Shown here one piece after another: positions 33,451 to 64,000 of a DNA stretch of 64,000 bases. The notes beneath the pieces are model-generated. The model did no database searches. It was not told where the DNA came from and was given only the letters and a program-made list of their open reading frames with translations. Source of the DNA: an uncultured Sphingomonadaceae bacterium (GTDB lineage Bacteria; Pseudomonadota; Alphaproteobacteria; Sphingomonadales; Sphingomonadaceae); assembly GCA_903871605.1 (NCBI GenBank), contig CAIQHF010000022.1, positions 62,001-126,000 on the forward strand, in the 5' to 3' direction. How positions within the stretch are numbered: the stretch's first letter is position 1; every line of letters begins with the position of its first letter. A program made the translations under genes and the position numbers.

Positions 33451-34377
33451 ATGGCCCAGTCGTCCATCGTTCACGATCCCGTGGCGGTTGAGCCTGCCGA
33501 CGCGCTGACGCCGCACATCGCGCTTCATCCCCAGTCGGGCGACCGGGGACGACTGTTCGATCTGGGACAGCTCGATTGTCGTCACGACGCGGAATTTCAC
33601 ACGCTGTGGACGTTCATGACGCCCAGCCAGCGCCCCAATTTCAACGAGTCGATGCTCCAGGATTTCGAGACCTGGCAGTCCGAGATCGTCCGCACGCTGG
33701 GCAGCCCCGAGATCGCGCTGCGCTATCTGGTGCTCGGCTCGCGCTTCCCCCGCGTGTTCAACTACGGCGGCGATCTCGAGCTGTTCACCAAGCATATTCT
33801 CGCCGGCGACCGCGCGGCGCTCGAAAGCTACGGCAAGGCCTGCGTCCGTATCCTCCACCGCAACATGCTGGGCCTCGGCCTGCCGCTGATCACGATTGCG
33901 CTGGTGCAGGGCGAGGCGCTCGGCGGAGGCTTCGAGTCGATCCTGTCGTTCGACGTCGTGATCGCGGAGCGCGATGCGCGTTTCGGCCTGCCTGAATCGA
34001 TGTTCGGCCTGTTTCCCGGAATGGGCGCGCACAGCTTCCTGTCGCGGCGGATCGGCAGCGCGCGCGCCGAGGAGATGATCCGGACCAGCCGCATCTATTC
34101 GGCCGAGGAGCTCCACGCGCTCGGCCTTGTCCACGTGCTGGCAGATCCCGGCAAGGGCGAGGAGGCGGCGAAGGACTATATCCGGCGCAACCATCGCTAT
34201 CATGCCGGCCAACTCGGCGCGCGGCGCGCGGCGCGACTGGTCGAGAATATCAGCCTTCAGGAGCTGGAGGATATCGTCGAGATCTGGGCGGATTCGGCGC
34301 TCGGGCTCAATCCCGGCCAGCTCAAGATGATGGGGCGGCTCGCCGGCGCCCAGACGCGGCTGTCGCTGGCCTCATGA
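33451..34377 (+). CDS. rpfF: DSF synthase RpfF-like crotonase (enoyl-CoA hydratase fold)
   Basis: VQGEALGGGFESILSFDVVIAERDARFGLPESMFGLFPGMGAHSFLSRRIG aligns with RpfF, keeping both catalytic Glu positions (ALGGGFE, GLPE). Confidence 0.85.
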   Translation: MAQSSIVHDPVAVEPADALTPHIALHPQSGDRGRLFDLGQLDCRHDAEFHTLWTFMTPSQRPNFNESMLQDFETWQSEIVRTLGSPEIALRYLVLGSRFPRVFNYGGDLELFTKHILAGDRAALESYGKACVRILHRNMLGLGLPLITIALVQGEALGGGFESILSFDVVIAERDARFGLPESMFGLFPGMGAHSFLSRRIGSARAEEMIRTSRIYSAEELHALGLVHVLADPGKGEEAAKDYIRRNHRYHAGQLGARRAARLVENISLQELEDIVEIWADSALGLNPGQLKMMGRLAGAQTRLSLAS

Positions 34378-36348
34378 GGCGTTGCGCGCGAGCCTGAGCA
34401 TCGGCGCGCGCTTCGCCGGCACCACCACGCCCTGATCGAGCAGAACGGCGAGCTCGGCTGCGGGAATCGGCATGCTCAGGAAGAAGCCCTGGACGCCGGC
34501 GCAGCCGAGTTCGCGCACCTGGTCGAGCTGGCTCGCGGTCTCGACACCCTCGGCGACGGTCTCGACCTCGAGCGTCCGCGCGAGGCTGACGACCGCATTG
34601 ACGATCGCGCGCGCGGTGCGGTTTTCTTCGATGTTGCGGACGAAACTGCTGTCAATCTTGATCTTGTCGAACGCATATTTGTGCAGATAGGCGAGGCTCG
34701 AATAGCCCGTGCCGAAATCGTCGAGGACAAGCCGCGCCCCGATCCGTCGCAGCGCCTTGAGCATCGTGTTCGATTGCTCGCTGTCGTCCATGAACACCGT
34801 TTCGGTGATCTCGAGCTCAAGCTGCTGCGCGGGAAGGCCCGAAGCGATGAGCGCGCTCATCACCGATTGCAGAAGGTCCGCGCGCTTGAGGAGCATCGGC
34901 GAGATGTTGACCGCGACGCGAATATCGTTGGGCCACGTCTTCGCGGCGCGGCAGGCCTCGGTCAATACCCAGGCGGTGATGTCGGCGATCTGGCCGGTCC
35001 GCTCGGCGAGCGGGATGAACTCGACCGGGCTGACCAATCCGCGCGTCGGGTGGTGCCACCGGATCAGCGCTTCGCAGCAGGTGACCTGCGACGACCCGAG
35101 ATTGAGGATCGGCTGATAGTAAAGTTCGAGCTCGTGGCGTTCGATCGCGAGCCGCAGGCTTTGCTCGGTCTCGCGCATCTGCATCAGCTTGTGTTGCATT
35201 GCGGGTTCGAACTCGCAGCTCGAATTCCGCCCCATCGCCTTGGCATGGTAGAGCGCCATGTCGGCATATTTGAGGAGTATCTCGGCGTCGAGCCCGGCAT
35301 GCGGCACGGTCACGATGCCGATCGACACCGACACGTGCAGCGACGCGCCGTCGATCAGCAGCGGCGTGTTGAACAGCCCGAGAATGCGGTCCGCCAGCGC
35401 CCTGGCCGCGCGCCGATCGACGCCGGCGGCAAGCAGCACGAACTCGTCGCCGCCAAAGCGCGCCAGGCAATCCTGCGTGCGCGCGACACTCTGCAGCCGC
35501 TCGGCGACGACCCGCAGCAGCTGGTCGCCCACGGGATGGCCGAGCGTGTCGTTGACCTCCTTGAAGCGGTCGAGATCGATCCACAGCAGGGACGCCGAGT
35601 CGGCACCGCCGCCGAGCTCGAGCAGCCGGTCGAGATTGCTCTTGAGCGCGAAGCGGTTGCGCAGGCCCGTGAGGCTGTCGATCTGCGCCAATCGTTCGAA
35701 GCGCTGCGCGAGCTGCGCCTGGCTGTGCGCGGCGGTCATCGCCTTGAGCACGACGCGGTAGGTCTGGAGCGTGATCTCGAGCATCGCCAGGATGAAGAGG
35801 ACATTGGCGAAGGCGAGCGTCCAGCAGGCGAGATTGCCCCCCTGTGCCAGCGCGATCGTCAGCGGCGCCGCCGCCAGCGACAGCTGACCGATCGCGATCG
35901 CGGGACGGCCCGCATTGCGCCCGGATATGCCCGCGGCATAGCCCGTCGTCGTCGTCGCAGCGAGCATATGGAGCTGGAAGTTGGGCTCGCGGGTGATCGT
36001 CAGATAGGTCATCAGCCCGAGCAGCGCCGCGAACGACCATGCACCGAATTCGTAGAAGCGCTCCCAGACGGCCGCGCGAGCGTTGCGCTCCTCCTCGTTG
36101 GTGTCGCGATATGCCATTGCAGCCGCGACGCGAACCGCGCCGACGAGGCTGATCGCAGCGCCCAGATAGATGAGCACGTGATCGTGCGACGACAGCCCGA
36201 TGATGGCCGAGATCATCGAGCCGGTCAGCGCGCCCGCGGCGAGCGACGACGGCGATGCGAACAGCGTGCCGACAAGCAGCTGCCGGACCTCGCGCGCAAC
36301 GCGCTGGTCGACATCGCGCAACCGCTGCCACCTTCCCAGCACCGCCAA
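34372..36348 (-). CDS. Membrane GGDEF-EAL cyclic-di-GMP protein
   Basis: Multi-TM N-terminus; RTQD-CLARF-GGDEF (I-site plus GGDEF intact); EALIRW and DDFGTGYSSL intact. Confidence 0.92.
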   Translation of the reverse strand: MAVLGRWQRLRDVDQRVAREVRQLLVGTLFASPSSLAAGALTGSMISAIIGLSSHDHVLIYLGAAISLVGAVRVAAAMAYRDTNEEERNARAAVWERFYEFGAWSFAALLGLMTYLTITREPNFQLHMLAATTTTGYAAGISGRNAGRPAIAIGQLSLAAAPLTIALAQGGNLACWTLAFANVLFILAMLEITLQTYRVVLKAMTAAHSQAQLAQRFERLAQIDSLTGLRNRFALKSNLDRLLELGGGADSASLLWIDLDRFKEVNDTLGHPVGDQLLRVVAERLQSVARTQDCLARFGGDEFVLLAAGVDRRAARALADRILGLFNTPLLIDGASLHVSVSIGIVTVPHAGLDAEILLKYADMALYHAKAMGRNSSCEFEPAMQHKLMQMRETEQSLRLAIERHELELYYQPILNLGSSQVTCCEALIRWHHPTRGLVSPVEFIPLAERTGQIADITAWVLTEACRAAKTWPNDIRVAVNISPMLLKRADLLQSVMSALIASGLPAQQLELEITETVFMDDSEQSNTMLKALRRIGARLVLDDFGTGYSSLAYLHKYAFDKIKIDSSFVRNIEENRTARAIVNAVVSLARTLEVETVAEGVETASQLDQVRELGCAGVQGFFLSMPIPAAELAVLLDQGVVVPAKRAPMLRLARNAS

Positions 36349-39729: not shown

Positions 39730-40913
39730 ATGGAGACGATCGGGGTAGGCCGTTCCGGGCCGCTCAGACTTCTGACTGTTGTCGGCACGCGGCCGGAGGC
39801 GATCAAGATCGCACCGATCGCACTGGAGGCGCAACGACGACCGGCTCTACAACACCGGACGCTCGCCTCGGGCCAGCAAGGCCCCCTGTTCGACGACGCG
39901 CTCGAAGGCTTCGGCCTCGCGCCCGAGCTTCGGCTTCCGGCCGTCCTTCACGACCGCGATCCCGACATCATGACCGAGCGGCTCGACGCGGCAATCCGAC
40001 CCGTTCTTGTCGCAGAACGGCCCGACATGGTCCTCGTCCAGGGCGATACGACATCGGCCTATGCGGGCGCGCGTGCCGCCCATGCGCTCGGCATTCCGAT
40101 CGGTCATGTCGAGGCGGGCCTGCGCTCGCACGACTGGGCGCAGCCATGGCCCGAAGAACGCAATCGCGTGATGATCGATCGACTGGCGACGCTGCTTTTC
40201 GCGCCGACCGCCGACGCCGAGGCTAATCTGGCAGCCGAGCACGATGTCGTGGTCGGCACCGTCGTCGTCACCGGCAACACCGGCATCGACGCGCTGCTCA
40301 CGATGCGCGCCAAGCTCCCCCCGTGCCACCGGCCGCGGACACCGCGCTGATCCTGCTCACCTGCCACCGCCGCGAAAATTTCGGGCCCGGCGTCGCGGCG
40401 GTGTGCGAGGCCGCGCTGCGACTCGCCGCGCGTGGCGACGTCACCATCCTCTGTCCGGTCCATTCGAACCCCCGGGTCGGCGACGTCGTCCGCGCGCGGC
40501 TGTCCGACCATCCCGCGATCGCGCTGACCGGCGCGCTGGCCTACCGCGAGACCGTGGCGGCGATGGCGACCGCCAGGCTGATCCTCACCGACAGCGGCGG
40601 CATTCAGGAGGAGGCACCCGCGCTCGGCACGCCGACGCTGGTGCTGCGCGACGTCACCGAGCGCCCCGAAGCGCTCGCCACCGGCAACCTCGCGCTCGTC
40701 GGCACCGATACCGATCGCATCGTCGCGGCCGCGACGCGGCTGCTCGACGATCCGATCGCGCATGCCGCGATGGCGTCCCCCGCATTCCCGTTCGGCACGG
40801 GCGATGCGGCGATCAAGATCCTCGATGCCATCGAACAATATTTCTCGTCGGGCCTCGACGACGTTCGTCCATTGCGTTCGGAGGCGCTTTGGATCAAGGA
40901 CGGCGCCCGATAA
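39730..40913 (+). pseudogene. wecB: UDP-N-acetylglucosamine 2-epimerase (non-hydrolysing), frameshifted
   Basis: 39730..40350 carries the N-terminal half (VVGTRPEAIKIAPI, GHVEAGLRS, PEERNR) and 40323..40913 the C-terminal half ([32 protein letters not shown]) in the -1 frame; junction at C6 run 40317-40322. Confidence 0.85.
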
Positions 40914-43006: not shown

Positions 43007-44236
43007 CTAACTTTTCCAAGGCGCCAAGATCAGGTCGCGATCAACCAGCAGCCGAACGGGAGCGCCGGGCCTGATCGTAAGCGTCGGCTGGACGTCGAGC
43101 GCATGCGCCGTCAGCTGGTCGCCCGCACGCGATACATTCTGTTGCCCGGACTGCCGGATCGCCTCGACCAGGCCCCCATTGCCGCTGAACTGCAGATCCG
43201 AGCCAATGCCCAGTATCGTCGAGATCGCGACGCCCTTGAGCAGCTGCCAGGTGTGGAAATCCACCTTGTCCTGCAGACCAGCATAGCCCGACGGATCGGT
43301 CGCGGGCATATTGTCGAGACTGATCGAACTGCCGTCGGGAAGGATGATCCGCTGCCAGACGACGAGTGCGCGCTTCTGTCCGAAGGCAACGACGCTATCA
43401 TAATTCCCGATCATCCTTGCCCCTTGTGGGACCAGCAGGATCCTGCCTGTCGGGCTGTCGAAGACATCTTCGGTCACTTGCGCGGTCACCATGCCAGGCA
43501 GATCCGAGCGCAGGCCGGTGATCAGGCTCGCGGAGATCATGCTGCCGGCAGAGATGAGATAGGGTGATGGGGCCGCCACCAGACTGTGCAGGTTCGCCGT
43601 TCCCTCCTTGGCGAGGGCTCCAACGAAATCGGCCTTATGGCCCTGCCCATTCGGATCGTGCGTCGGATCCAGCGAGAGGCCAGGCTTTTCGCTAGAAACT
43701 GTCGGAGCCGCCGGGGCGGCCGTTACTGCCGGGGCAACCGGCGATGCAGCGCTCGCGTTGACCAGCAATCCCGATTGCAGCGCCGCCTTGGCCTCCGCGA
43801 CCTGCTGCTGGCGCGCGGTCTCGGCTGCTTGGGCGGCTTGTTGCTGCTCGGCCGGGGGTGGCGTCAACAACGTGCGCTGCTGCTGATCGGCCATTGCCTT
43901 GCCGAGGTCGCCGGGAAGCGGCGGCCCTAGCCTCGGTACATCGGCATAGGTCTTTGCCAACCCCTTGAGACTGTCGCCAGCGGGGTTCGATACCGGCTGA
44001 GATCGGTCCTGGGCGGAAGCGCCCTTGCCGCCCCCGCCGTGGCGAAGAGCCACCCAGGTCGCGAGCAGAATGAAGGCCATCGCAGCCGAAGTCAGCGCGA
44101 TGACGGCGCCGCGCTTGATCCGAATGGCTCGCCTGGGACGCGCGCGGATCGCCAAAGTCTCGGGATCGACCTTCGGGGGCGGCGCCGAAGGCTTTGACGC
44201 GTCCTGCCCGGGCGCGACGGCAGCGGCCTCGTTCAT
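43007..44236 (-). CDS. trbI: Conjugal transfer protein TrbI
   Basis: YLISAGSMISASLITGLRSDLPGMVTAQVTEDVFDSPTGRILLVPQGARMIGNYDS. Confidence 0.92.
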   Translation of the reverse strand: MNEAAAVAPGQDASKPSAPPPKVDPETLAIRARPRRAIRIKRGAVIALTSAAMAFILLATWVALRHGGGGKGASAQDRSQPVSNPAGDSLKGLAKTYADVPRLGPPLPGDLGKAMADQQQRTLLTPPPAEQQQAAQAAETARQQQVAEAKAALQSGLLVNASAASPVAPAVTAAPAAPTVSSEKPGLSLDPTHDPNGQGHKADFVGALAKEGTANLHSLVAAPSPYLISAGSMISASLITGLRSDLPGMVTAQVTEDVFDSPTGRILLVPQGARMIGNYDSVVAFGQKRALVVWQRIILPDGSSISLDNMPATDPSGYAGLQDKVDFHTWQLLKGVAISTILGIGSDLQFSGNGGLVEAIRQSGQQNVSRAGDQLTAHALDVQPTLTIRPGAPVRLLVDRDLILAPWKS

Positions 44237-45204
44237 GACGCCCTCCGTGCCGAGACCTGGTCTGCGGTGCGCGCGATCCGCACGACCTGCTGGTGCTTGA
44301 GCCCGAGCCGCAGTTCGGCCACGTCGAACAGCCGGTCGACGACGTAGAACCGGCCTTTCACCCGGTAGTTGACCAGCTGGGCGGTCCCCCTGGCATCGAC
44401 CAGGAAGAGCGGCGGCGCCTCCCCGGTGCCAAGATCGGCGGGAAATTCGATGAAGGTCTGGCGGCCGTCGTCGAATGCGCGCGTCGGCCGCCAACCCGGC
44501 TGGTCGCCGCTGATCGCATAGTTGAAGTGCAGCTGGGTCACGTCGATCCCGGTTGCCACCGGCGCCGCGGCCTCGGCCTGCTCGGCCGCCTTGCGCAGCG
44601 CGATCAACTGGTCGGCAGGATAGGTCCAGGACAGCGCCGCCATTGCCGTCCGCGCCGTGCTGGTCAGCGCCACATAATAGATGCGCCGGTCAGTGGTGAT
44701 GACGAGATTGGTTGACAGCCCGCTGGTGAAGGGCTTGACCAGGACGTGCGTGCGCTTGGCATCGCCCGAGCCGCTGCTGGTGTCGCCGATCACCCAACGC
44801 ACGGTGTCGCCCGACGCGACCGAGCCCAGCGTCTCACCCGGCTGCAGCGCGATGTCGGTGACCTGGCCGGGTGCCGTGTAGGCATGGAAGATCGCGCCCT
44901 CGACGAACGGATAGACCTGGACTGCGCCGAGGAAGCCGCGGGCATCGGGTTCTTGGGTGGCAGCGCGGTTCGCCGACAGGATGCGGGAGGCTTCTGGCGA
45001 TGTGCGCCGATAACGGGGCGCATGCGGCCGAAATGCCGACGCCTTCGGCTGTGCGGCTGCTAGGACCGTGGCCGATCTGGTCGCCGCAGGTGCCACCGCA
45101 ACAGGCGGCGCCGTGGGCGCCATGGACCGGGCCGCCGGCGGCGCATTGCCCACAAGTAGGATGGACGCGCCGGTCAGAAGCGGAAAGACAAGCAAGCGGG
45201 TCAT
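44233..45204 (-). CDS. trbG: Conjugal transfer protein TrbG
   Basis: AIFHAYTAPGQVTDIALQPGETL; TNLVITTDRRIYYVAL; FNYAISGDQPGWRPTRAFDDGRQTFIEFP. Confidence 0.9.
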   Translation of the reverse strand: MTRLLVFPLLTGASILLVGNAPPAARSMAPTAPPVAVAPAATRSATVLAAAQPKASAFRPHAPRYRRTSPEASRILSANRAATQEPDARGFLGAVQVYPFVEGAIFHAYTAPGQVTDIALQPGETLGSVASGDTVRWVIGDTSSGSGDAKRTHVLVKPFTSGLSTNLVITTDRRIYYVALTSTARTAMAALSWTYPADQLIALRKAAEQAEAAAPVATGIDVTQLHFNYAISGDQPGWRPTRAFDDGRQTFIEFPADLGTGEAPPLFLVDARGTAQLVNYRVKGRFYVVDRLFDVAELRLGLKHQQVVRIARTADQVSARRAS

Positions 45205-45953
45205 GGCTGGACCTCCGGGGTAGATTGGGTTTCGAGCGTGGGGAGTGTGGGTGCCGGCACGGGCGCCAGCGGCTCGAGCTCGCGGCTCCAGTCTATCGCG
45301 TCGACATAGATGCCGAGCGGGTTCTTGCGCAGCGCGTCGGCGGTCGTCGGCGGATCGGTCACGATCGTCAGGATCGCGGTCCAGTGAGACGTCTTGGTAA
45401 GCGCGCCGTGGTCGTAGGCGGTCTCGATCCACTTGACCTGGAAGGAGCGATCAGAAGCACGCACCACGCTGGTGACCTGTACCGACACGCTATGCTCGCC
45501 GATGAGCGCAAAGGGATCGGCGGTGCGCTCATAGTCGCTGAGCGCCTGCGCGCCGCGCTTGGTGGTGAAATCATACTCTTCCAACCAGGCGTTCCGCATC
45601 AGCACCGGATCGATCGAGATGGTGCGCACGGCGCTGATGAAGTGGCCGAGATGCCAGGCGATCTGCGGATCGGTCGGCTGATAGCTGGCTTCAGCCGGCG
45701 ACACCGCCCTCGCCTCGCCGAGCCGGTCGACCTCGACGACATAGGGCGTGACGCGGCTCTGCAGCGACTGCCAGACCAGGCCGCTCGAGAGACCGATCGA
45801 CAAGCCGAGACCGCCGAGTGCCATCAGCCGCCAGTTGCGCGCCTGGACGCGGGCCGAGCCGAGCCGATCGTCCCAGAGCTGGCCGGCGCGCCGATAGGGC
45901 GTCTCGGGCTCGGGTGTGCGTCCGTAGCGCTGGACGCCGCGCTTGAAATGCAT
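45201..45953 (-). CDS. trbF: Conjugal transfer protein TrbF
   Basis: TPYRRAGQLWDDRLGSARVQARNWRLMALG; NPLGIYVDAIDWSRE. Confidence 0.9.
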   Translation of the reverse strand: MHFKRGVQRYGRTPEPETPYRRAGQLWDDRLGSARVQARNWRLMALGGLGLSIGLSSGLVWQSLQSRVTPYVVEVDRLGEARAVSPAEASYQPTDPQIAWHLGHFISAVRTISIDPVLMRNAWLEEYDFTTKRGAQALSDYERTADPFALIGEHSVSVQVTSVVRASDRSFQVKWIETAYDHGALTKTSHWTAILTIVTDPPTTADALRKNPLGIYVDAIDWSRELEPLAPVPAPTLPTLETQSTPEVQP

Positions 45954-45957
45954 GGGG

Positions 45958-47268
45958 TCAGTCCTCCTTTTCGCTGATGTCGGGGGTGGCCGAGGCGCCG
46001 CCGCCATCGCCTTCCTTGAGCGTCTGCGCGGCAGTCTGGCGATGATAGCGGGCGGTCTGCTCGGATCGGATTTGGCGGGCCCAGTCGGGCGCACCCGAAG
46101 ATGTCCCCTGCCCGCTGCTCGAACCGCCAGCCGACGCCGGCTTGCCGATCATCGCGCGGGTCGCAGCGTTGCGGCCGGCTCCGGCGGCGTCGCCGAGACC
46201 GAGTGCGCCAGAGACCTTCGCTTTGGCCGCATTGCCGGCGGCGTGCGCGACGCCGCCCATGCCGGCACCGAGCGAGGTTTCGCCAACCGCCGCTTGCCCG
46301 AGTCCGAAGGCGGTGGACGCAGCCGATCCCATTGCGGTGCCGGCACGGATCGCGCCGAGCGCAGCACCGCCTGCGGCGCCCGCCGCACCCATGGCGGCGC
46401 TGCCAGCAAGCGCCAGCGTCCCGCCCGCACCAATCGCCGTGCCGACCGCGGCGCCAGCGCCGAGCTGCGGCGCGCCAGCAACGAGCCCGGAGGCGATGCT
46501 CGGACCAAAGATGCCGAGACCGAACAGCGACAGGGCGGCAAGCATCAGGCTCATTGCCTGCCCGATGTCGGGCTGGTGACCCTGCAGCGCTGTCGTGAAC
46601 TGCGTGAAGAAGGTCGAGCCGATCCCGACGATGATCGCCAGCACCATAACCTTGACGCCGGAGGAGACGACATTGCCGAGCACGCGTTCGGCGAGGAAGC
46701 TGGTCCGGTTCCAGAGTGCGAAGGGCACCAATACGAAGCCGGCGAGACTGGTAAGCTTGAACTCGAGGATCGTCACGAACAGCTGGACGGCGAGCACGAA
46801 GAAGGCGAGCACCACGACCATCCAGGCGAACAGCAGCACGATGATGGTCAGGAAATTGTCGAAGAAGCTCGCAAAGCCCATCATCTGCGAGGCCTGGTTG
46901 AGCAGCGGCCAGGCCGCCGAGAAGCCGGTGCCGGCAAGCTTGCCAGGCTTGAGCAGGTCGTCCGCCGAAAGCCCCCCGCCCCCCGCCTCCAGACCGATCG
47001 CGGCGAACGATCGGTAGATGATGTCGGCGAGCGCCGAGAAGCTGTTGAGGATATAGGCGAAGGCGCCGACATAGAGGATCTTGCGCACGAAGCGCGCGAT
47101 CACATCCTGTTCGCCGCCGAGCGCCCAGAATAGGCCGGCGAGCGTCGCGTCGAGCCCGATCAGCAGCACGGTCAGCGAATGGACGTCGCCACCGATCAGC
47201 CCGAAGCCGCTGTCGATATAGGTCGAGAAGACGCTAAGGAACTGGTCGATGACATTGAGGTCGTTCAC
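45958..47268 (-). CDS. trbL: P-type conjugative transfer protein TrbL
   Basis: NVIDQFLSVFSTYIDSGFGLIGGDVHSLTVLLIGLDATLAGLFWALGG; polytopic; Ala/Gly-rich C-terminus. Confidence 0.9.
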   Translation of the reverse strand: MNDLNVIDQFLSVFSTYIDSGFGLIGGDVHSLTVLLIGLDATLAGLFWALGGEQDVIARFVRKILYVGAFAYILNSFSALADIIYRSFAAIGLEAGGGGLSADDLLKPGKLAGTGFSAAWPLLNQASQMMGFASFFDNFLTIIVLLFAWMVVVLAFFVLAVQLFVTILEFKLTSLAGFVLVPFALWNRTSFLAERVLGNVVSSGVKVMVLAIIVGIGSTFFTQFTTALQGHQPDIGQAMSLMLAALSLFGLGIFGPSIASGLVAGAPQLGAGAAVGTAIGAGGTLALAGSAAMGAAGAAGGAALGAIRAGTAMGSAASTAFGLGQAAVGETSLGAGMGGVAHAAGNAAKAKVSGALGLGDAAGAGRNAATRAMIGKPASAGGSSSGQGTSSGAPDWARQIRSEQTARYHRQTAAQTLKEGDGGGASATPDISEKED

Positions 47269-47388
47269 GAACCAACTCCTGTGCTGAGCAAATCCGCGGG
47301 ACGCGTCCTGTGGGGAGCGGCAGTCCGCGCCCCGCGGTGGCAGTGACAGTTAGGGGCGACCGTCACCGCCCGATCCGGCTCTGGGCCT

Positions 47389-48111
47389 CTAGCGGGGAGT
47401 GTAGGCCGAGCCGGAACCGAGAAAGGCTTTGGTCGCCGCCTGCGCGTCGATGCTGGCCTGCGCGCGCGTCGCGGAGGCCGTCGCATCGGCGCGGCCTTGG
47501 GCCGCCGCCATCTGCTGGATCTGGAGCTGCTGCTTGGCGGTGAGCGCAAGCAGCTGGTTGGTCGCCTGCGCCACCTGAAGCGCGCCTTGCGATGACTGGC
47601 TCCGCGCCGACAGCGTCGCGAGCGTCGCTGCATCGGCACTGATGTTCTCGGCGATCTGGCTCTGCGTCGCCATCGTCTGATGAAACGCCGCCAAGGTCGC
47701 CGCCATCCGCGTCTGTGCTGCCGCGACCTGCGCACTGGTCGTCGACGCCGTGCCACCCTGCCCCGGAAATAGCCGGGTGAATTCGGCGTCGATGCTGCTG
47801 ACGTTGAAGCTGACGCCTTGGGCCTGGCCCATCAGCGTCTGGATCTTCTGAAGCGTGGTGGTGAGCTGCTGCAGCTCGGGGAAATTGAAGCTGGTCAGGT
47901 TCTTCGCCTGATTGCTCAGCATCGTCGCCTGGTTCTGTAGCGCTTTGATCTGGTTATCAATCTGGGTGAGCGTGCGTTCGGCGGTCAGAAGATTTTGCGC
48001 GAAATTGCTCGAGTCAAACACGGCCCATTGCGCACGTGCCGGACTGACGAGCGCCATCGCGGCGGCAAGCAAGACTGGCATGAGCGGGCGAGAAGGACGA
48101 CGCGGTTTCAT
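47389..48111 (-). CDS. trbJ: P-type conjugative transfer protein TrbJ
   Basis: VFDSSNFAQNLLTAERTLTQIDNQIKALQNQA with signal peptide. Confidence 0.88.
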   Translation of the reverse strand: MKPRRPSRPLMPVLLAAAMALVSPARAQWAVFDSSNFAQNLLTAERTLTQIDNQIKALQNQATMLSNQAKNLTSFNFPELQQLTTTLQKIQTLMGQAQGVSFNVSSIDAEFTRLFPGQGGTASTTSAQVAAAQTRMAATLAAFHQTMATQSQIAENISADAATLATLSARSQSSQGALQVAQATNQLLALTAKQQLQIQQMAAAQGRADATASATRAQASIDAQAATKAFLGSGSAYTPR

Positions 48112-50576
48112 GATACATCTCCATTCTGGGAGTGGGGGGCGGCCGGATGCGGGAAGTCGGCAAGCAGCTGCACGGCCCAGTCGAGACCGACATCGCTGAG
48201 GAAGCGGGCGGCAAAGTCGGGAGCGCCGTGCTCGGCGAGCAGCCGGTCGATCCGGCGCTGCGACGCCGGGTCGGACGCTCCGCACAGCGCAAGCGCGATC
48301 GGTCCAAGGCCAAGCTCGAACAGCCGGTTGCCGCACGCCGACTGGAGATAATAGTGCCGTTTCGGGGTAGCCCTGCTGATCAGCTCGATCTGGCGGTCGT
48401 TGAGCCCGAAGCGCGCATAGGCGATCCTTCCCTGCGGCTCGATCGCCCGGTCATTGGGCAGCAATATGCGCTGCGGACAGCTCTCGATGATGGCAGGAGC
48501 GATCTGGCTCTCGGCGATGTCGGCCAGACTCTGTGTCGCGAACAGGACTGCGACATTCTTCTTGCGCAGCGTCTTCAGCCATTCGCGGATGCGAGCCGCG
48601 AACAGCGGATGGTCGAGGAAGATCCAGGCCTCGTCGAGGATCAGCAGCGTCGGCCGTCCATCGAAGCGCGCCTCGAGCCGGTGGAAGAGATAGGTCAGCA
48701 CGGGCGCGACCGCGCCGCTCTGACCGAGCAGCGACTCGGTCTCGAAACATTGCACGTCGGCAAATGCCGCGTCGGCTACATCCGGCTCTGCCGCATCCAG
48801 CAGCCGACCATATGGTCCTTCGAGCGTATAGGGCGTGAGCGCGGATCTGAGCGCATTGGACTGGAGCAGCAGCGTCAGCCCGGTGAGCGTGCGCTCGTTT
48901 TCCGGCGCGGAAGCGAGATTATCGAGCGCGGACCAGACGATCTCCTTGATCTCGGGCGTCACCAGCACGCGCTCATGCGCGAGCAGCGCTGCGATCCAGT
49001 CGGCGGCCCAGGCGCGTTCGCTGGCACGGTCAATGCGGCGCAGCGGCTGGAAAGCGATGGCGGCGCCATCGTCGGCGCTGAGACCCAGCGCATGATGCGC
49101 GCCGCCCATGGCCAGCACCGCGGCGCGCGCCGAAAAGCCCTTGTCGAAGATGATCAGCTGCGAGCCTGCATAGCGGCGGAACTGCAGCGCGATGAGTGCC
49201 AGCAACACCGACTTGCCCGCCCCCGTCGGGCCGACCACCAGCATATGACCGACGTCGCCGACATGCGTCGCGAGACGGAACGGCGTCGATCCCGATGTCT
49301 GCGCGACCAGTAGTGCTGGCGCCTGCAGATGATCGTTCGCGGCTGGTCCTGCCCACACGCTCGACAGCGGCATGAGATGAGCGAGGTTCAGCGTGTGGAC
49401 CAGCGGCTGGCGGACATTGGCATAAGCCTGCCCCGGTAGTGACGAGAGCCAGGCCTCGACGGCGTTCACGCCTTCGCGGATGCAGGTGAAGCCGAGCCCG
49501 TTGATGATCCGCTCGGCGGCGCGCACCTTCTCCTCGACCCGCGCGCGGTCGCTGTCGGAAACCGTGATGGTGGTGGTCATATAGCCGAAGGCGACATGAT
49601 CGCCGCCGAGCGCCTGCAGCGCGAGGTCGGCATCGACGACCTTGTTGTCGGCGTCGCTGTCGAGCAGCGGCGACGGCTGATTGTACATCACCTCGCGCAG
49701 CAACGCGGTGATCGACTTGCGCTTGTTGAACCACTGCCGGCGCAGCTTGGTCAGCGCCTTGGTCGCATCGGTTTTGTCGAGCGCGATGAAGCGGGTGACC
49801 CAGCGATAGGCGAAATCCTGATGGTTGAGCGCATCGAGGATCCCCGGCCGGCTGACATTGGGGAAGCCGAAGATGGTCAGCGTGCGCAGATGCCGGTCGC
49901 CGAGCCTGGGCTCGAGACCACCCGCCAAGGGCGTGTCCGCCAACAGTCCGTCCAGATAGAGCGGTGTCTCGGGCGCGGCGACGGGATGCCGCTGCGTCGA
50001 GACGGTGTCGTGCAGATAAGTGAGCGTCTCGGCCGAACCCAGCGACAGCATCTCAGGCATGATCGCCGAAAATAGATCGAGCGCGCGGTCGGTCTCGGCG
50101 ATGAAGCTCTGCAGCGCGGCGCGCCAGTCGCGGCCGGTCTCGCTTTCGGGGCGTTCGATCAGCGACCGGCCAGCAGCGTCGCTGCTGTCGGCGGGCGGCA
50201 GCCAGCTCAGCGTCAAATGGAAGCGGCTCTCATAATGGCGACCTTCGGCGCGAAAGCCCGCCATGCGCTCGCGGTCGACGGCCCAGGAGGCGGCGTCCGG
50301 AAACGCGCTGTCGGGATAGGCCAGAGCCTCGCGGCGCTCCGCCTCGAAGAACAAAGCCCAGCCCGAGCCGAAGCGCTTGAGGACATTGTTCGCCCGCGCG
50401 CAGGCCGAGACCAGTTCGGCCTCGGTCGCGGACTCAAGATCGGGGCCGCGAAATGCCAGCGTGCGCTGGAAGCTGCCGTCCTTGTTGAGGACGATGCCGG
50501 GCGCGACCAGCGCCGCCCAGGGCAGATGATCGGCAAGCCGATCGGCCGACGTGCGATATTCGTGCAGCGCTAGCAT
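48108..50576 (-). CDS. trbE: Conjugal transfer ATPase TrbE (VirB4-like)
   Basis: VVGPTGAGKSVLLALIALQFRRY Walker A; LLILDEAWIFLDHPLFA Walker B. Confidence 0.93.
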   Translation of the reverse strand: MLALHEYRTSADRLADHLPWAALVAPGIVLNKDGSFQRTLAFRGPDLESATEAELVSACARANNVLKRFGSGWALFFEAERREALAYPDSAFPDAASWAVDRERMAGFRAEGRHYESRFHLTLSWLPPADSSDAAGRSLIERPESETGRDWRAALQSFIAETDRALDLFSAIMPEMLSLGSAETLTYLHDTVSTQRHPVAAPETPLYLDGLLADTPLAGGLEPRLGDRHLRTLTIFGFPNVSRPGILDALNHQDFAYRWVTRFIALDKTDATKALTKLRRQWFNKRKSITALLREVMYNQPSPLLDSDADNKVVDADLALQALGGDHVAFGYMTTTITVSDSDRARVEEKVRAAERIINGLGFTCIREGVNAVEAWLSSLPGQAYANVRQPLVHTLNLAHLMPLSSVWAGPAANDHLQAPALLVAQTSGSTPFRLATHVGDVGHMLVVGPTGAGKSVLLALIALQFRRYAGSQLIIFDKGFSARAAVLAMGGAHHALGLSADDGAAIAFQPLRRIDRASERAWAADWIAALLAHERVLVTPEIKEIVWSALDNLASAPENERTLTGLTLLLQSNALRSALTPYTLEGPYGRLLDAAEPDVADAAFADVQCFETESLLGQSGAVAPVLTYLFHRLEARFDGRPTLLILDEAWIFLDHPLFAARIREWLKTLRKKNVAVLFATQSLADIAESQIAPAIIESCPQRILLPNDRAIEPQGRIAYARFGLNDRQIELISRATPKRHYYLQSACGNRLFELGLGPIALALCGASDPASQRRIDRLLAEHGAPDFAARFLSDVGLDWAVQLLADFPHPAAPHSQNGDVS

Positions 50577-50857
50577 GCCCAATATCCCTTCTGACGAAGA
50601 TGGCGGAGCAGCACGGGCGCGAAATAGGGATCCCGCCGGGCTGCAAAGACGGCGAGGCTGTGCCCCGCCGCCCAGAGCAGGAGGCCGGCCACCCATTGCT
50701 GGAGCCCCAGGCCGACGGCGGCCGAGATCGTCCCGATGACGATCGCGAGACCACGAGGTGCGCCGCCCAGCAGGATCGGCGACCCGAGCGCGCTGTGGAT
50801 CGGGACCTCGAAGCCGGGAATGTGTCCGGCGTGCTGATGGGTGGCAGGCATGGTCAT
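50570..50857 (-). CDS. trbD: Conjugal transfer protein TrbD (VirB3-like)
   Basis: GFEVPIHSALGSPILLGGAPRGLAIVIGTISAAVGL; position between trbC and trbE. Confidence 0.88.
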   Translation of the reverse strand: MTMPATHQHAGHIPGFEVPIHSALGSPILLGGAPRGLAIVIGTISAAVGLGLQQWVAGLLLWAAGHSLAVFAARRDPYFAPVLLRHLRQKGYWAC

Positions 50858-51204
50858 GCGATCAGCGCCCCGCCGCCGAAGCTGAAGAAGCTGAGGAAGA
50901 AGCTCGAAGCGGCAAAGGCGATCGACAGGCCGAACACGATCTGGATGAGCCGGCGAAAGCCACCGCTGCTCTCGCCGAACGCGAGCCCCAGGCCGGTCGC
51001 GATGATGACGATGACCGCCATGATCTTCGCCACCGGTCCCTGGACCGAGTCGAGCACGGACTGCAGCGGCGCTTCCCACGGCATGCCCGTCCCGGCGGCG
51101 TGGGCGGGCGAAGCGGCGAACGCCATCGACAGCCCGACACCGAGGGCGAGTGGATGAAGCAGGCGGGCCACAAAACGGCGGCCGCGAACGGACGGCAAAG
51201 TCAT
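50854..51204 (-). CDS. trbC: TrbC/VirB2 pilin
   Basis: Signal peptide, MPWEAPLQSVLDSVQGPVAKIMAVIVIIATGLGLAFGE. Confidence 0.88.
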   Translation of the reverse strand: MTLPSVRGRRFVARLLHPLALGVGLSMAFAASPAHAAGTGMPWEAPLQSVLDSVQGPVAKIMAVIVIIATGLGLAFGESSGGFRRLIQIVFGLSIAFAASSFFLSFFSFGGGALIA

Positions 51205-52208
51205 GCTGGATCTCCTTGGGCGAGGTGGTCAGGCAGGATGTCGACGAGGGCGTATTCCCCGTCGGGATCGACGCCGGTCAGGCGTGCGATGCTGGCGATC
51301 CGGCGCTGCAGACCGCGGCCGGAGATGAAGACGATGAGATCGACCGCCTCGGCGACCAGCCGGCGCGGCACGGTGACCACCGCCTCTTGGACGAGCTGCT
51401 CGATCCGGGTGAGCGCGGCTGGTGCGCTATTGGCATGCACCGTCGCGATGCCGCCAGGATGTCCCGTATTCCAGGCTTTGAGCATATCGAGTGCTTCGGG
51501 GCCGCGGACCTCGCCGATGATGATCCGGTCGGGACGCAGCCGCAGCGTCGAGCGCAGCAGATCGGCCATGCTGACGCCAGCGGCCGAGTTCGCCCCCGCA
51601 CGACGCGTGCGGAGCGCCACCGTGTCGGCCGCCGGGCTCTGCAGCTCGCGTGTGTCCTCGATCAGGATCACGCGCTCGTCGAGCCCCGCCATCTCGGCGA
51701 GCAGCGCGTTGGCGAGCGTCGTCTTGCCAGAGCTCGTGCCGCCAGCGACGACGATGTTGCGGCGCTCGACGACGCCCAGCGACAATATCCGCGCCGCGTC
51801 GGGCGACATCAGGCCATCGGCCACATAGTCCACCAGGCGGTAGAGACGCTCGGCCGGTTTGCGGATCGCGAAACAGGGGCCGGTCGCGACCGGCGGCAGC
51901 ACGCCCTCGAAGCGCTCCCCTGCCCGGCCTTCCGCATGCGGCGGCAATTCCGCCGAGATGATCGGTGCGTCGCTATGGATCTCGGCACGCGCGTAGCTCG
52001 CGACGAGCCGGATGATCCGCTCGACCTGCTCGACCGACATGACGATGCCACTGTCGACCCGACCTTCCCCGAGGATGTCGAGGCGCAGCGATCCGTCGGG
52101 ATTGACCATGATCTCGATGACGCGGGGATCGCCGAGCGCCTCGGCGATCGCGGGGCCCATCGCGGTGCGCAGCATCGTGCGCCGACGGTCGGAGGAGAGC
52201 GTGCTCAC
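51201..52208 (-). CDS. trbB: P-type conjugative transfer ATPase TrbB (VirB11-like)
   Basis: VAGGTSSGKTTLANALLAEMA; LRPDRIIIGEVRGPEALDMLKAWNTGHPGGIATVHANSA. Confidence 0.93.
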   Translation of the reverse strand: MSTLSSDRRRTMLRTAMGPAIAEALGDPRVIEIMVNPDGSLRLDILGEGRVDSGIVMSVEQVERIIRLVASYARAEIHSDAPIISAELPPHAEGRAGERFEGVLPPVATGPCFAIRKPAERLYRLVDYVADGLMSPDAARILSLGVVERRNIVVAGGTSSGKTTLANALLAEMAGLDERVILIEDTRELQSPAADTVALRTRRAGANSAAGVSMADLLRSTLRLRPDRIIIGEVRGPEALDMLKAWNTGHPGGIATVHANSAPAALTRIEQLVQEAVVTVPRRLVAEAVDLIVFISGRGLQRRIASIARLTGVDPDGEYALVDILPDHLAQGDPA

Positions 52209-52612
52209 CGGCGCGCCTCCGGTCCAGGCACATCGATGGCACGCTTGCCGCCAGCGATCTGCCGCCCGACCTGCTCGACGAACGCGGCAAAACGGTCGCG
52301 CGCCATCGCGCGTCCGGCATGGTCGTCGCCCGCTAGCGGCGCATGAATCGAGAGTTCGTAGCGGACGAACAACGCCAGCGTTTCGAGCAGGATATGACCG
52401 TCGCGTTCAATCCGGCCGAGTGCCGTCACGATCCGATCGAGGCGTTGGCCGAAACGCTCGTCGATTTCGCTGGTCGCGCGCCGGTCGAGCCAGGACAGCA
52501 GGGCCTGCTCGAGCATGGCGGATTTTGTGACGCCGGGCTTCGTCGCCAGCGCTTCGAAGCGAAGGCTGGTCGCTGGCGTCAGATAGAATTGGTGACGAAC
52601 CTTCGTGCGCAT
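52205..52612 (-). CDS. CopG-family transcriptional regulator
   Basis: RHQFYLTPATSLRFEALATKPGVTKSAMLEQALLSWLDRR between trbB and traG. Confidence 0.75.
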   Translation of the reverse strand: MRTKVRHQFYLTPATSLRFEALATKPGVTKSAMLEQALLSWLDRRATSEIDERFGQRLDRIVTALGRIERDGHILLETLALFVRYELSIHAPLAGDDHAGRAMARDRFAAFVEQVGRQIAGGKRAIDVPGPEARR

Positions 52613-52615
52613 TGG

Positions 52616-54658
52616 TCAGTCTCCCAGCCCCAGCACGCCCTGCCTTGGCCGGACGTCGTCGATGGCGAAGGACGAGCGAGCGATCGACGCCGCACGGACT
52701 TGGTCGAGCGGCTTTGCATCGACCACCGGATCGCTATCCTGCTCATCGATGCCGAGCGCATTGCCAGGGGCTGGCTCAGCCTCTTCGACAGAGACCTGGT
52801 CGGGCATGTCGGGCTGACGTTGCTGCTCGAGGCCACCATCACCGGTCGCGACGTCATCTTCGTCGGGCGATGCGAGTCGCGCGTCGAAATCTCGGGTCGT
52901 GCCCGACCAGTCGTCGTCCCGCTCTCCGGGCCGATCCGCATAGCGGCCATCGCCCAATTTTGGGGCGGGCAGGACACGCTCGACGAACAGCGGATCGGCG
53001 TAATAGCGCATCTTGGTGGCGCGGATCGGCGGCACCCCCGACACCAGGACGAGTTCGTCGGTCGCCGGAAGCTGCATCACCTCGCCCGGCGTCAGCAGCG
53101 CGCGCGCCGTTTCCTGCCGGCTGACCATGACATGGCTGAGCCAGGGCGCCAGCCGGTGTCCGGCATAGTTTCGCATTGCGCGCTGTTCGGTGGCGGTGCC
53201 GAGCGCATCCGAAATGCGCTTCGCCGTCCGCTCGTCATTGCTCGCAAAGGCCACGCGCACATGGCAATTGTCGAGGATCGCATTGTGCTCGCCATAAGCC
53301 TTCTCGATCTGGTTGAGCGACTGGGCGATCAGGAAGGCGCGCACGCCGTAGCCCGCGAGAAAGGCGAGTGAGGTCTCGAAGAAGTCCAGCCGGCCAAGTG
53401 CTGGAAATTCGTCGAGCATCATGAGCAGCTTGTGACGTCGTCCCGCGCTGGCCGTGCCCTCGGCGACATGCAGATGCTCGGTCAGGCGGCGCCCGATCTG
53501 GTTGAGGATCAGGCGGACCAGCGGCTTGGTCCGGGAAATGTCCGAAGGCGGCACGACCAGATAGAGCGACAGCGGATGCTTGGCCTCGACCAGATCCGCG
53601 ATGCGCCAATCGCAGGCGGCGGTGACGGCGGCGACGGTGGGATCGCGGTAGAGACCAAGGAAGCTCATCGCGGTCGACAGCACCCCGGATCGTTCGTTGT
53701 CGGATTTGTTGAGCAGTTCGCGTGCGGCAGAGGCGACGAGGGGATGGACGCGCGGCGCCTCGTCGGTGCCGAGATGGTTGGTCGCCATCATCTGCTTCAG
53801 CGTCTCGACGAAGCTCCGCTGCGGGTCGCACAGGAAGGTCGCAACCCGCGCAAGCGTCTTCTCCTCCTCGGCATAGAGAATGTGCAGGATGGCGCCGACC
53901 AGCAGGGAATGGCTGGTCTTTTCCCAATGGTTGCGACGCTCGAGCGCACCTTCCGGATCGACCAGGATATCGGCGATGTTCTGGACGTCGCGCACCTCAT
54001 CGGCGCCGCGTCGCACCTCGAGCAGGGGGTTGTAGCGCGCCGACCGCGCATCGGTCGGATTGAACAGCAGGCAATGCGAAAAGCGCGTGCGCCAGCCGGC
54101 GGTCAGCTGCCAATTCTCGCCCTTGATGTCGTGGATGACCGCGGACCCGGTAAAGCTCAGCAAAGTCGGGATGACCAGCCCCACGCCCTTGCCTGACCGC
54201 GTCGGGGCAAACGCCATGACATGTTCGGGGCCGTCGTGGCGGAGACCGTCCTGGTGGAACCGGCCCAGAAAAACACCGGCATTGGCGAATAAGCCGGCCC
54301 GTTCCATCTCGCGCCTCGACGCCCAGCGCGCGGATCCATAAGTCGTCACCTGCTTGCGCTGACGGGCCCGCCACAGCGAACCGAAGATCGCGGCGGCGCA
54401 CGCGGCCATGCCGCCGGCGCCGGCGATCTCGCCGCCCCGATCGAAGATGCGCGGTGCATAGGCATCGAAGTGGTACCACCATGGGAACAGCGCCCAGGGC
54501 CGGTAGACATGCGCCCCAAGGATGCGAAGGTCAGACGGCCCGAGTTCCGGCTGGTACGCCAGTTGCGCTGCGACCCACTGCGTCGCCAGCCAGATCGCGC
54601 CGAACACGATCGCGAAGACCGTGAGGATCTGGCCGATCAGCAGCTTGGTGGGCGTCAT
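52616..54658 (-). CDS. traG: Type IV coupling protein TraG/VirD4
   Basis: FAPTRSGKGVGLVIPTLLSF; HDIKGENWQLTAGWR; LLMMLDEFPALGRLDFFE. Confidence 0.92.
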   Translation of the reverse strand: MTPTKLLIGQILTVFAIVFGAIWLATQWVAAQLAYQPELGPSDLRILGAHVYRPWALFPWWYHFDAYAPRIFDRGGEIAGAGGMAACAAAIFGSLWRARQRKQVTTYGSARWASRREMERAGLFANAGVFLGRFHQDGLRHDGPEHVMAFAPTRSGKGVGLVIPTLLSFTGSAVIHDIKGENWQLTAGWRTRFSHCLLFNPTDARSARYNPLLEVRRGADEVRDVQNIADILVDPEGALERRNHWEKTSHSLLVGAILHILYAEEEKTLARVATFLCDPQRSFVETLKQMMATNHLGTDEAPRVHPLVASAARELLNKSDNERSGVLSTAMSFLGLYRDPTVAAVTAACDWRIADLVEAKHPLSLYLVVPPSDISRTKPLVRLILNQIGRRLTEHLHVAEGTASAGRRHKLLMMLDEFPALGRLDFFETSLAFLAGYGVRAFLIAQSLNQIEKAYGEHNAILDNCHVRVAFASNDERTAKRISDALGTATEQRAMRNYAGHRLAPWLSHVMVSRQETARALLTPGEVMQLPATDELVLVSGVPPIRATKMRYYADPLFVERVLPAPKLGDGRYADRPGERDDDWSGTTRDFDARLASPDEDDVATGDGGLEQQRQPDMPDQVSVEEAEPAPGNALGIDEQDSDPVVDAKPLDQVRAASIARSSFAIDDVRPRQGVLGLGD

Positions 54659-55016
54659 CCGATTTCTCCGCCCGCGATCGACTGATCGGCCTGGGCACGT
54701 GAATAATCGGCGTTTCCGGCGCGAAGCGTCAGATAGCTGTTGTTGTACCGAAGTGTATTTCAGCCAATTTCGTGACGGAAAGGTGCGGTTCGGGAATGAA
54801 TCCGTTGCTTCGGACGCGCGCCCGTTCGAGGGCCGCGACTCGATTCGCGTGGGCGGCCAGCCAGCGGGCTCTCACCGTCAGACGATCTCAGCCAGACTGA
54901 CGCATGGCGATATCGAAGGGCCGCCCGACTGGCCTCGCTACGCCGAGAAGGTAGCTACGCCCCTCGAATGGCGGTCGGTCCGCGGCCGCGCGGACGCGCC
55001 GCCTACACGGCCAAGA

Positions 55017-55472
55017 TCATAGGGTATCGAGAATACGAAGCGTGGCCTCGTCCTTTTCTCCGCCGAACCACCGCTCGATCGCCGCATCAAACAACGGCGC
55101 CCCGTCGGCCTCAGCGAACAACGTCAACGAAGAGCGAAGCTTGATTGCATCGATCGTGCCGAAAATGGCTTTTGCGGTCGTGCCCGTCAGGTCCTGCAGC
55201 GCCATCACGCATTCGCGGTAGCGGTTGCCGAGTGCCGGATGGGCAAGATAGGCGCGTGCCTCTTCGAGCGAGAAGATGGCGTAGCGCTGCGCCATGCCGC
55301 TGTGACCGAGACCCGCAATTTGCGGAAAGATGAACCACATCCAGTGCGTGCGCTTCGCGCCGCGTTTGATCTCGGCCAGTGCGGTCTCATAGGTCGCCGC
55401 CTGCGCCTCGACGAACCGCTCCAGGTCAAATTCCTCCGACACCGCTTGCTTCCCCCGGTTGTAGCGATCCAT
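55017..55472 (-). CDS. DUF1810 domain protein
   Basis: RFVEAQAATYETALAEIKRGAKRTHWMWFIFPQIAGLGHS. Confidence 0.85.
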   Translation of the reverse strand: MDRYNRGKQAVSEEFDLERFVEAQAATYETALAEIKRGAKRTHWMWFIFPQIAGLGHSGMAQRYAIFSLEEARAYLAHPALGNRYRECVMALQDLTGTTAKAIFGTIDAIKLRSSLTLFAEADGAPLFDAAIERWFGGEKDEATLRILDTL

Positions 55473-63500: not shown

Positions 63501-64000
63501 ACCGTCCGCAAGCGCGTGCTCGCCGAGCATGCCGACCTGACGCTTACCAAGCTCTACAATGTCCTCGAAGCGCTACGCGAAGGCCGCGCACTCACGCCGC
63601 AGGAGCGCGACATCCACGATCGCGGGCTCGTCACGCTGATCCGCCAGCATCACGACGCGATCGATGAGGGCGTGGCGGACGCCTATGGCTGGGGCGACGA
63701 GCATCGCGCCGGCACGCTGGACGAGGAGACGATCCTCACCCGCCTCGTCGCGCTCAACAAGGAGCGGGCGGCGGAGGAGGCGCGCGGGCTGGTGCGCTAT
63801 CTGCGCCCCGAGTTCCAGGACCCCGGCTACCGCGCGCCGGTCGCGACCACGCTCGATCTCGGCGAGGCGGCGGTGGCGCCGGTCAGCAATGTTATACCCT
63901 GGCCGGCGACCTTGCCGGAGCAGGTCGGCGCGGTGCAGTCGATCTTGGCTGCCGCGCCCGCGCCGCTCGCGGCAGGGGACATCGCGCGCAGCTTCAAAGG
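60573..64000 (+). CDS. MmeI-like class I SAM-dependent DNA methyltransferase with N-terminal nuclease motif (3' truncated by window)
   Basis: Hand translation from ATG 60573 runs off the window without the stops expected; D-X9-EAK (D60792...EAK 60822-60830), motif I DPACGTGNFL (61848), motif IV NPPF (62343), SRTFDPFPFP near TRD end. Absent from the ORF track. Confidence 0.85.
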   Translation, partial: MGEASDVEQFIAQWRDTGGSELANTQSFINGLCRLIGVEPPHGSRTDDAQNDYVFERRVFQDNGDGTVSFGRIDSYKRGVFILEAKQGSEADRAAAERGEDDLDLFGQTASARLKRGTARRGTPGWAKAMVQAKGQAERYAKALPADHGWPPFLLVADIGYCIEVYADFSGTGKSYAQFPDRSRYRIMLDDLRDPEVRERLAAIWDAPASLDPAARAARVTRDIADLLATVARRLEKRGHTAERTSGFLMRLLFTMFAEDSGLIPEKSFTNLLKAQRAAPQHLEHQLTALWAAMDAGAFSPALGVPLRKFNGYLFKDRTAIPLDAEELEVLIQAAEHRWTEVEPAIFGTLLERALNPKERAKLGAHYTPRAYVERLVGPTIIEPLRADWAGVRVAASELIDQGKADEARRTVEAFHTRLAQTRVLDPACGTGNFLYVAMARMKELEGEALDLLVDLGDDQYLAELTGHTITPENFLGIEINPRAAAIAQLVLWIGYLQWHFRVNGADRPPPEPILRDIRTIENRDALIEWDERVLQRDASGAPVTRWDGETMKPHPVTGKLVPDEAARVEVYRYVNPRAAKWPKADFIVGNPPFIGGKDVRERLGDGYFEALFRTTDVPESADFVMHWWDKAAHAVRRGETRRFGFVTTNSLTQLFSRRVIAKHLDAKDGLSIRFAIPNHPWVDEKDGAAVRIAMTVAVPGKSEGLLLAVVDEREAPDRIEFLGRTGVIGSDLRVGAELTTTVPLRANGRIASRGVQLMGDGFIVTPDEAAKLDPRSMAIARGGDRVPPRVRSGRGNEPQVIYDYRNGRDLASRPRDVMVIDLFGLREAELRHHYPAVYQHVAARVKPHRDTNNRASYRQNWWLYGEPRSELRVALSGVERYIATIETAKHRVFQFLPISTLPDNKLVAIASDKAYVLGVLSSIFHVPWAVASGGRLGMGDDPVYVKSRTFDPFPFPTDVSEPLTERIAAEAEALDTVRKRVLAEHADLTLTKLYNVLEALREGRALTPQERDIHDRGLVTLIRQHHDAIDEGVADAYGWGDEHRAGTLDEETILTRLVALNKERAAEEARGLVRYLRPEFQDPGYRAPVATTLDLGEAAVAPVSNVIPWPATLPEQVGAVQSILAAAPAPLAAGDIARSFK

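Follow-up and report, generated by a model that had tools for sequence, protein, structure and literature searches.

Signals of the DSF family are made by RpfF enzymes, which form a cis-2 fatty acid from acyl-ACP (PMC4504480), and reviews describe two routes from these signals to c-di-GMP, RpfC/RpfG and RpfR (PMC4504480; PMC13220807, 2026). RpfR, in which signal binding leads to breakdown of c-di-GMP (PMC6361424), is also named as the DSF receptor in a census of c-di-GMP sensory inputs (PMC8846402). The stretch of 64,000 nt analyzed here (the window; contig CAIQHF010000022.1 of an uncultured Sphingomonadaceae bacterium) carries an rpfF-like crotonase gene that meets, tail-to-tail, a gene for a membrane GGDEF-EAL protein, which raises the question whether the two form a DSF circuit and, if so, of which kind. 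In the openly licensed literature, no description of DSF circuits in sphingomonads was found, nor any report of rpfF paired with a membrane GGDEF-EAL protein in Alphaproteobacteria. The best reading of the comparative evidence is that in this pair DSF signalling would use a receptor of new architecture, neither RpfC nor RpfR, which would be the third DSF-to-c-di-GMP architecture.

The gene pair and its surroundings

The features of the locus are collected in Table 1. The coordinates and the tail-to-tail overlap given in the initial annotation are exact, both genes ending within the same hexamer. The crotonase gene starts with ATG and has the plausible Shine-Dalgarno sequence GGGAG, and the GGDEF-EAL gene starts with TTG at position 36348, six bases upstream of which lies an equally plausible GAGGAG.

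Table 1. Features of the rpfF and GGDEF-EAL gene pair in the window
Feature	Position	Strand	Basis and remarks
rpfF-like DSF synthase gene, clade A	33451..34377	+	308 aa; PRK08788 match and AF2 fold
Membrane GGDEF-EAL gene, 658 aa	34372..36348	-	ORF, Pfam GGDEF and EAL, conservation as rpfF partner; proposed DSF receptor and c-di-GMP enzyme
TCATGA, both stop codons, 6-nt convergent overlap	34372..34377		Read from sequence
Codon of catalytic Glu162 (ALGGGFE)	33934..33936	+	At least 97% of 122 RpfF, including proven synthases
Codon of catalytic Glu182 (GLPE...LFPGMGA)	33994..33996	+	At least 97% of 122 RpfF; 20 residues past E162 as in solved RpfFs
N-terminal membrane domain, residues 1-215	35704..36348	-	AF2 model
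RNAGR family motif, residues 144-148, TM4-TM5 loop	35905..35919	-	Invariant in 68 aligned domains; predicted cytoplasmic side
GGDEF domain (residues 221-375) with intact GGDEF motif and RTQD I-site	35224..35688	-	PF00990, 144.6 bits
EAL domain (residues 396-627) with complete catalytic residues	34468..35163	-	PF00563, 248 bits

Glycosyltransferase genes adjoin rpfF in the window, and the polysaccharide cluster upstream of it includes a glucosamine inositolphosphorylceramide transferase-like gene (PF24793; 29220-30107, minus strand). A UDP-GlcNAc 2-epimerase-like gene at 39730-40913 is present as two overlapping ORFs of 206 and 196 aa; as its counterpart in a relative (locus L071, 10737-11909) is intact as a single ORF of 390 aa, the window copy probably contains a frameshift or an error of sequencing. 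Further downstream, the type IV secretion/conjugation genes at 43007-55472 (TrbL/VirB6, CagE/TrbE/VirB4-like, T2SSE/VirB11-like and TraG/coupling protein) are consistent with an integrative conjugative element, and an MmeI-type restriction-modification protein (60573-63998) reaches the window edge.

The crotonase and its membrane partner

Judged by profile, catalytic glutamates, phylogeny and predicted fold, the crotonase is a member of the DSF-synthase (RpfF/DfsA) family. Besides a Pfam match to ECH_1, it scored 343 bits against NCBIfam PRK08788 (cutoff 177), which by its profile scores is a family spanning the proven DSF synthases: the scanned parts of the solved synthases of Xanthomonas type and of B. 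cenocepacia reached 382 and 396 bits, respectively. Against the narrower RpfF equivalog NF053515 the score of 193 bits was under the cutoff of 550, and the same parts of the two proven synthases scored 513 and 183 bits. Since the proven B. cenocepacia synthase also misses this cutoff, the equivalog is xanthomonad-biased, and a placement of the window protein outside the RpfF family on these grounds is ruled out. A phylogeny of 52 proteins united all RpfFs, the proven synthases among them, in one clade with 100% support against other crotonases; within it, the clade of the window protein (clade A) was one side of a branch with a low support of 47, and a second sphingomonad clade (clade B) had a support of 83. 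The AlphaFold2 model of the crotonase (pLDDT 89.9) matched RpfF/DfsA structures in all of its best 12 PDB fold hits (E ≤ 3e-21), the next crotonase following at 4e-15 and P. aeruginosa DspI ranking below the RpfF/DfsA entries. Thus, the window protein falls inside the DSF-synthase clade by both tree and fold ranking. Moreover, both catalytic glutamate contexts named in the initial annotation are present, E162 in GGGFE and E182 in GLPE, 20 residues apart, together with the oxyanion-hole region (GGDL, G106-L109; GGGFE, G158-G160), and conservation across 122 RpfF sequences is at least 97% for E162, E182, GGDL, GGGFE and LFPGMGA.

The partner protein matched PF00990 and PF00563 far above cutoff. 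From its sequence the EAL active site is intact, with all metal- and substrate-binding residues present, and the residues concerned (E426, N481, E513, D543, D544, K564, E600 and Q620) show no substitution in 156 relatives, among which the GGDEF motif is intact in 150. The window protein does carry all four motifs previously listed for it, namely GGDEF, EAL, DDFGTG and an RxxD I-site, which reads RTQD, precedes GGDEF by nine residues and is the mark of product-inhibited diguanylate cyclases. The I-site, however, is not a family feature: it was found in 10 of the 156 relatives and is missing from the other 146, and its role as a conserved regulatory feature is accordingly ruled out.

The N-terminal part of the protein had been described as multi-TM and devoid of an evident PAS domain, and this description holds. 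An AlphaFold2 model of residues 1-215 computed with 68 sequences (pLDDT 93.2, pTM 0.88) predicts two amphipathic helices (residues 2-29), six TM helices (33-54, 57-82, 92-120, 124-144, 149-168 and 173 to about 200) and a stalk leading into GGDEF. No PAS domain was detected in the protein by Pfam scan, residues 1-215 had no Pfam match and no related family at E < 1, MHYT and MASE included, and the six-TM model had no significant fold match among PDB or viral structures. Profile comparison detected no homology to the membrane input of alphaproteobacterial RpfC-type kinases (hhalign probability 0.3). Residues invariant in 68 aligned domains include R73, E96, G102, R144-N145-A146-G147-R148, Q155 and P162, and the predicted topology, with N-terminus and GGDEF-EAL in the cytoplasm, would place most of them towards the cytoplasmic face of the membrane. 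In the versions from Hyphomicrobiales, an additional PAS_7 domain separates the TM domain from GGDEF, so that the shared core consists of the TM domain and GGDEF-EAL. Distant forms of the domain were found in GGDEF-only proteins unrelated to rpfF, and the cue sensed may therefore be more general.

Association of synthase and partner across genomes

When the TM-domain alignment alone was used to search 84,980 species genomes, 227 loci were confirmed, of which the best 80 were kept; these are the closest loci, and the choice favours rpfF-linked forms. Among these best 80 of 227, rpfF adjoins the TM domain in 78, and the two loci without rpfF (L143 and L145) are cut off by the end of the contig directly behind the putative receptor gene. 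The arrangement in the same 80 loci is convergent in 66 and divergent in 12, the latter mostly from Hyphomicrobiales, and 60 of the 66 convergent pairs lie within 60 nt, with a median gap of +9 nt. The 6-nt stop overlap of the window is incidental in this respect, 15 of the 66 convergent relatives overlapping, and as a conserved feature it is ruled out by gaps that range from -47 to over +1000 nt among relatives. When the neighbouring genes of the best 80 loci were clustered, the receptor family was represented at 69 loci and the main rpfF cluster at 68, and nothing else at more than 12. An inherited neighbourhood of which the pairing is a by-product is thereby ruled out, the flanking genes not being common to the loci. 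The adjacency of the two genes, which had been noted in the window, is thus conserved across Sphingomonadales and Hyphomicrobiales and far beyond chance, and the persistence of the pair through changes of neighbouring genes and of relative orientation argues strongly that the two function jointly. The genomes of Sphingomonas sp. Leaf208 (L170, L173) and Sphingomonas sp. H160509 (L162, L175) each contain two such pairs; with lengths of 385 and 604 aa, the receptor ORFs of H160509 are short and possibly damaged.

The association also extends to genomes in which the two genes are apart. In a sample of 301 genomes of the same family, with a threshold of E ≤ 1e-14 for the TM domain, clade A rpfF (rpfF-A) was present in 91 and the TM domain in 108, both occurring together in 90; the sole rpfF-A genome without the domain is 77% complete. 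By coordinates, the two are adjacent in 22 of the 90 genomes with both. Where unlinked genomes were read, the receptor gene lies beside malate dehydrogenase and rpfF-A beside exosortase A/XrtA polysaccharide genes; at L055 (5104-10831) and similar loci, for instance, rpfF-A comes directly after the genes of exosortase A and the XrtA amidotransferase, and sdhB lies downstream of it on the opposite strand. This placement suggests a link between the signal and the PEP-CTERM/XrtA polysaccharide. Because genomes share ancestry, the co-occurrence was also stratified by genus, using a per-genus table compiled by hand. The TM domain was found in 36 of 36 genera with rpfF-A, as compared to 3 of 60 others, and the 11 genera polymorphic for rpfF-A comprise 19 genomes with both genes, none with rpfF only, 11 with the receptor only and 20 with neither; in the window's own genus, three genomes have both and seven neither. 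The within-genus stratified exact test (p=3.2e-6) weakens clade inheritance as the only cause of the pairing. The relation is one-sided, since 18 of the 108 genomes with the TM domain lack rpfF-A: the synthase implies the receptor and not the reverse, as expected if the orphan receptors eavesdrop on neighbours or have changed their ligand.

The receptors of genomes without rpfF-A were further compared at conserved positions that had been defined on an independent set of 77 receptors from the genome-scan loci. Broken positions in the TM domain amounted to 12% in unlinked receptors of rpfF-A genomes vs. 22% in orphans (p=4e-4, in small related groups with kinship ignored), and in the catalytic domains to 8.0% vs. 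9.3% (p=0.05, kinship likewise ignored). At a stricter threshold both the TM and the catalytic parts differ between orphans and receptors of rpfF-A genomes. The RNAGR motif is more often lost in genomes without rpfF. A relaxed constraint on the TM domain in the absence of the synthase is suggestive only.

Clade B rpfF behaves differently. It occurs in 11 sphingomonad genomes, none of which has the TM domain (0/11), and in all 10 loci read its convergent neighbour encodes an RpfC-type kinase with HisKA, HATPase, REC and Hpt domains and is preceded by a REC-PAS-GGDEF-EAL gene (L242-L251). No published description of such a locus, with REC-PAS-GGDEF-EAL instead of the HD-GYP regulator RpfG, was found. 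Among the 301 genomes the RpfC-type kinase is present in exactly the 11 with clade B, and it is absent from the window's genome at E ≤ 1e-75. Of 20 other rpfF loci sampled across the class, 15 likewise have the gene of an RpfC-type kinase convergent with rpfF. Within one family, the clade of the synthase therefore predicts, with no overlap, which of two unrelated c-di-GMP-linked sensors fills the slot, and this exclusive partition is our best argument that the TM GGDEF-EAL protein would be the sensor. Among the other rpfF loci, those of L059 (8812-10845) and L060 (9092-10984), from other families of the order (G050 and G042), encode rpfF fused to a C-terminal haem-oxygenase-like domain (PF14518) and adjoin an RpfC-type kinase and a REC-PAS-kinase; over-long rpfF ORFs were seen at two more loci of the class, L281 and L288.

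Proposed mechanism, alternatives and known systems

Taken together, we consider it probable that rpfF and the membrane GGDEF-EAL gene form one signalling unit, in which a DSF synthase has a dedicated one-protein receptor with c-di-GMP output. We propose that RpfF would release a cis-2-unsaturated fatty acid, a DSF-family signal, from acyl-ACP, which would partition into membranes, where the six-TM domain may bind it or sense its effect on the membrane. The stalk would then shift the GGDEF-EAL dimer and, with input and output in one polypeptide, no phosphorelay would be involved; by analogy with RpfR, the signal would most likely raise the EAL phosphodiesterase activity and lower c-di-GMP. The six-TM domain would thereby replace the membrane input of RpfC or the PAS domain of RpfR, and docking of RpfF on the receptor, as for RpfC and RpfR, would be a reasonable addition. 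We lean, somewhat less firmly, towards a third class of DSF receptor, whose six-TM domain would bind the cis-2 fatty acid inside the membrane or at its inner face and directly drive GGDEF-EAL, and which would have displaced the RpfC-type kinase in one alphaproteobacterial rpfF clade. Sensing by the TM domain is argued here from position and exclusivity and not from homology to the RpfC-type input. A DSF-to-c-di-GMP coupling different from the known ones, as the initial annotation had suggested, was supported on every comparative test run (synthase clade, conserved pairing and six-TM input); DSF production, its binding and an effect on c-di-GMP are themselves inferred.

Three other explanations of the pair were weighed. 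The membrane protein could be a partner and regulator of RpfF that docks the synthase and gates synthesis, its c-di-GMP output following the binding of RpfF rather than of a ligand. Both known partners do bind RpfF, as seen in the complexes with the RpfC REC domain (PDB 3m6m) and the RpfR FI domain (6dgn), a restraint of RpfF by FI has been described (PMC6361424), and the conserved TM-domain residues are cytoplasmic by topology, where RpfF would sit. We nevertheless hold this to be rather unlikely, as the sphingomonad protein has no REC or FI-like soluble domain; moreover, the known partners do both jobs, so that docking adds to sensing and excludes nothing.

Unlikely, too, is that the TM domain sets c-di-GMP in response to a different cue from membrane or lipids and is paired with rpfF merely through common control of surface polysaccharide and biofilm. 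Such a role would accommodate the distant versions on GGDEF-only proteins, the genomes that have the receptor without rpfF-A (18) and the location of rpfF-A beside exosortase A/XrtA genes in unlinked genomes or glycosyltransferases in the window, but neither the exclusive split of two rpfF clades between two c-di-GMP-linked sensors nor adjacency in shuffled surroundings is expected from a loose functional theme. That the crotonase is a metabolic acyl-ACP/acyl-CoA hydratase or thioesterase, with the neighbouring c-di-GMP enzyme responding to fatty-acid status, appears very improbable. The missed equivalog cutoff (193 of 550 bits) and the fact that no product of any alphaproteobacterial member was found in the literature searched would fit a metabolic enzyme; however, that cutoff is not reached by the proven B. 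cenocepacia synthase either (183 bits), the window protein retains both glutamates along with the oxyanion-hole GGDL, GGGFE and LFPGMGA, and sister clades occur next to RpfC-type sensors.

If the preferred reading of a synthase with its own membrane receptor is true, a third, compact DSF-to-c-di-GMP route would exist in common bacteria of soil, plant leaves, sea and water. It would be a quorum-sensing circuit with a single receptor-output protein, widespread among the Sphingomonadales and also occurring in Hyphomicrobiales; the genera concerned are Sphingomonas, Sphingobium, Sphingopyxis, Parasphingopyxis, Croceibacterium, Methylobacterium and Chelatococcus. An unnamed membrane domain would be assigned a likely class of ligand, and the bacterial family, in which two clades of the same enzyme have different proposed receptors, would offer a natural experiment.

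Among the known systems, RpfF/RpfR (BDSF; Burkholderia, Cronobacter and relatives; PMC4504480, PMC6361424) is likewise a convergent synthase-receptor pair with a PRK08788 synthase, and RpfR, like the window protein, has GGDEF and EAL in one chain, is encoded beside rpfF and couples the signal directly to c-di-GMP. RpfR is, however, a soluble protein with FI and PAS domains, which bind RpfF and the signal, respectively, whereas the input of the window protein is predicted to be six-TM, lacking PAS in sphingomonads and with PAS_7 inserted in Hyphomicrobiales; a soluble N-terminal FI domain is absent from the window protein. In the RpfF/RpfC/RpfG system of xanthomonads (PMC4504480), rpfF is also convergent with the gene of a membrane sensor and the output is again c-di-GMP turnover, but RpfC is a five-TM hybrid histidine kinase with a phosphorelay to an HD-GYP regulator, and the window protein has no kinase, REC, Hpt or HD-GYP (GGDEF and EAL only, by Pfam). 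The clade B locus of sphingomonads shares with the window pair the bacterial family, the convergent slot and the second messenger, yet it is a two-component version with a response regulator and is mutually exclusive with the membrane GGDEF-EAL protein. Other integral membrane inputs fused to GGDEF/EAL proteins include MHYT, MASE and similar domains (PMC8846402), MHYT having six TM helices as well. Compared to these, the TM domain of the window protein has no Pfam match, is characterized by the motif RNAGR together with E96, R73 and Q155 instead of MHYT, and is genetically tied to rpfF.
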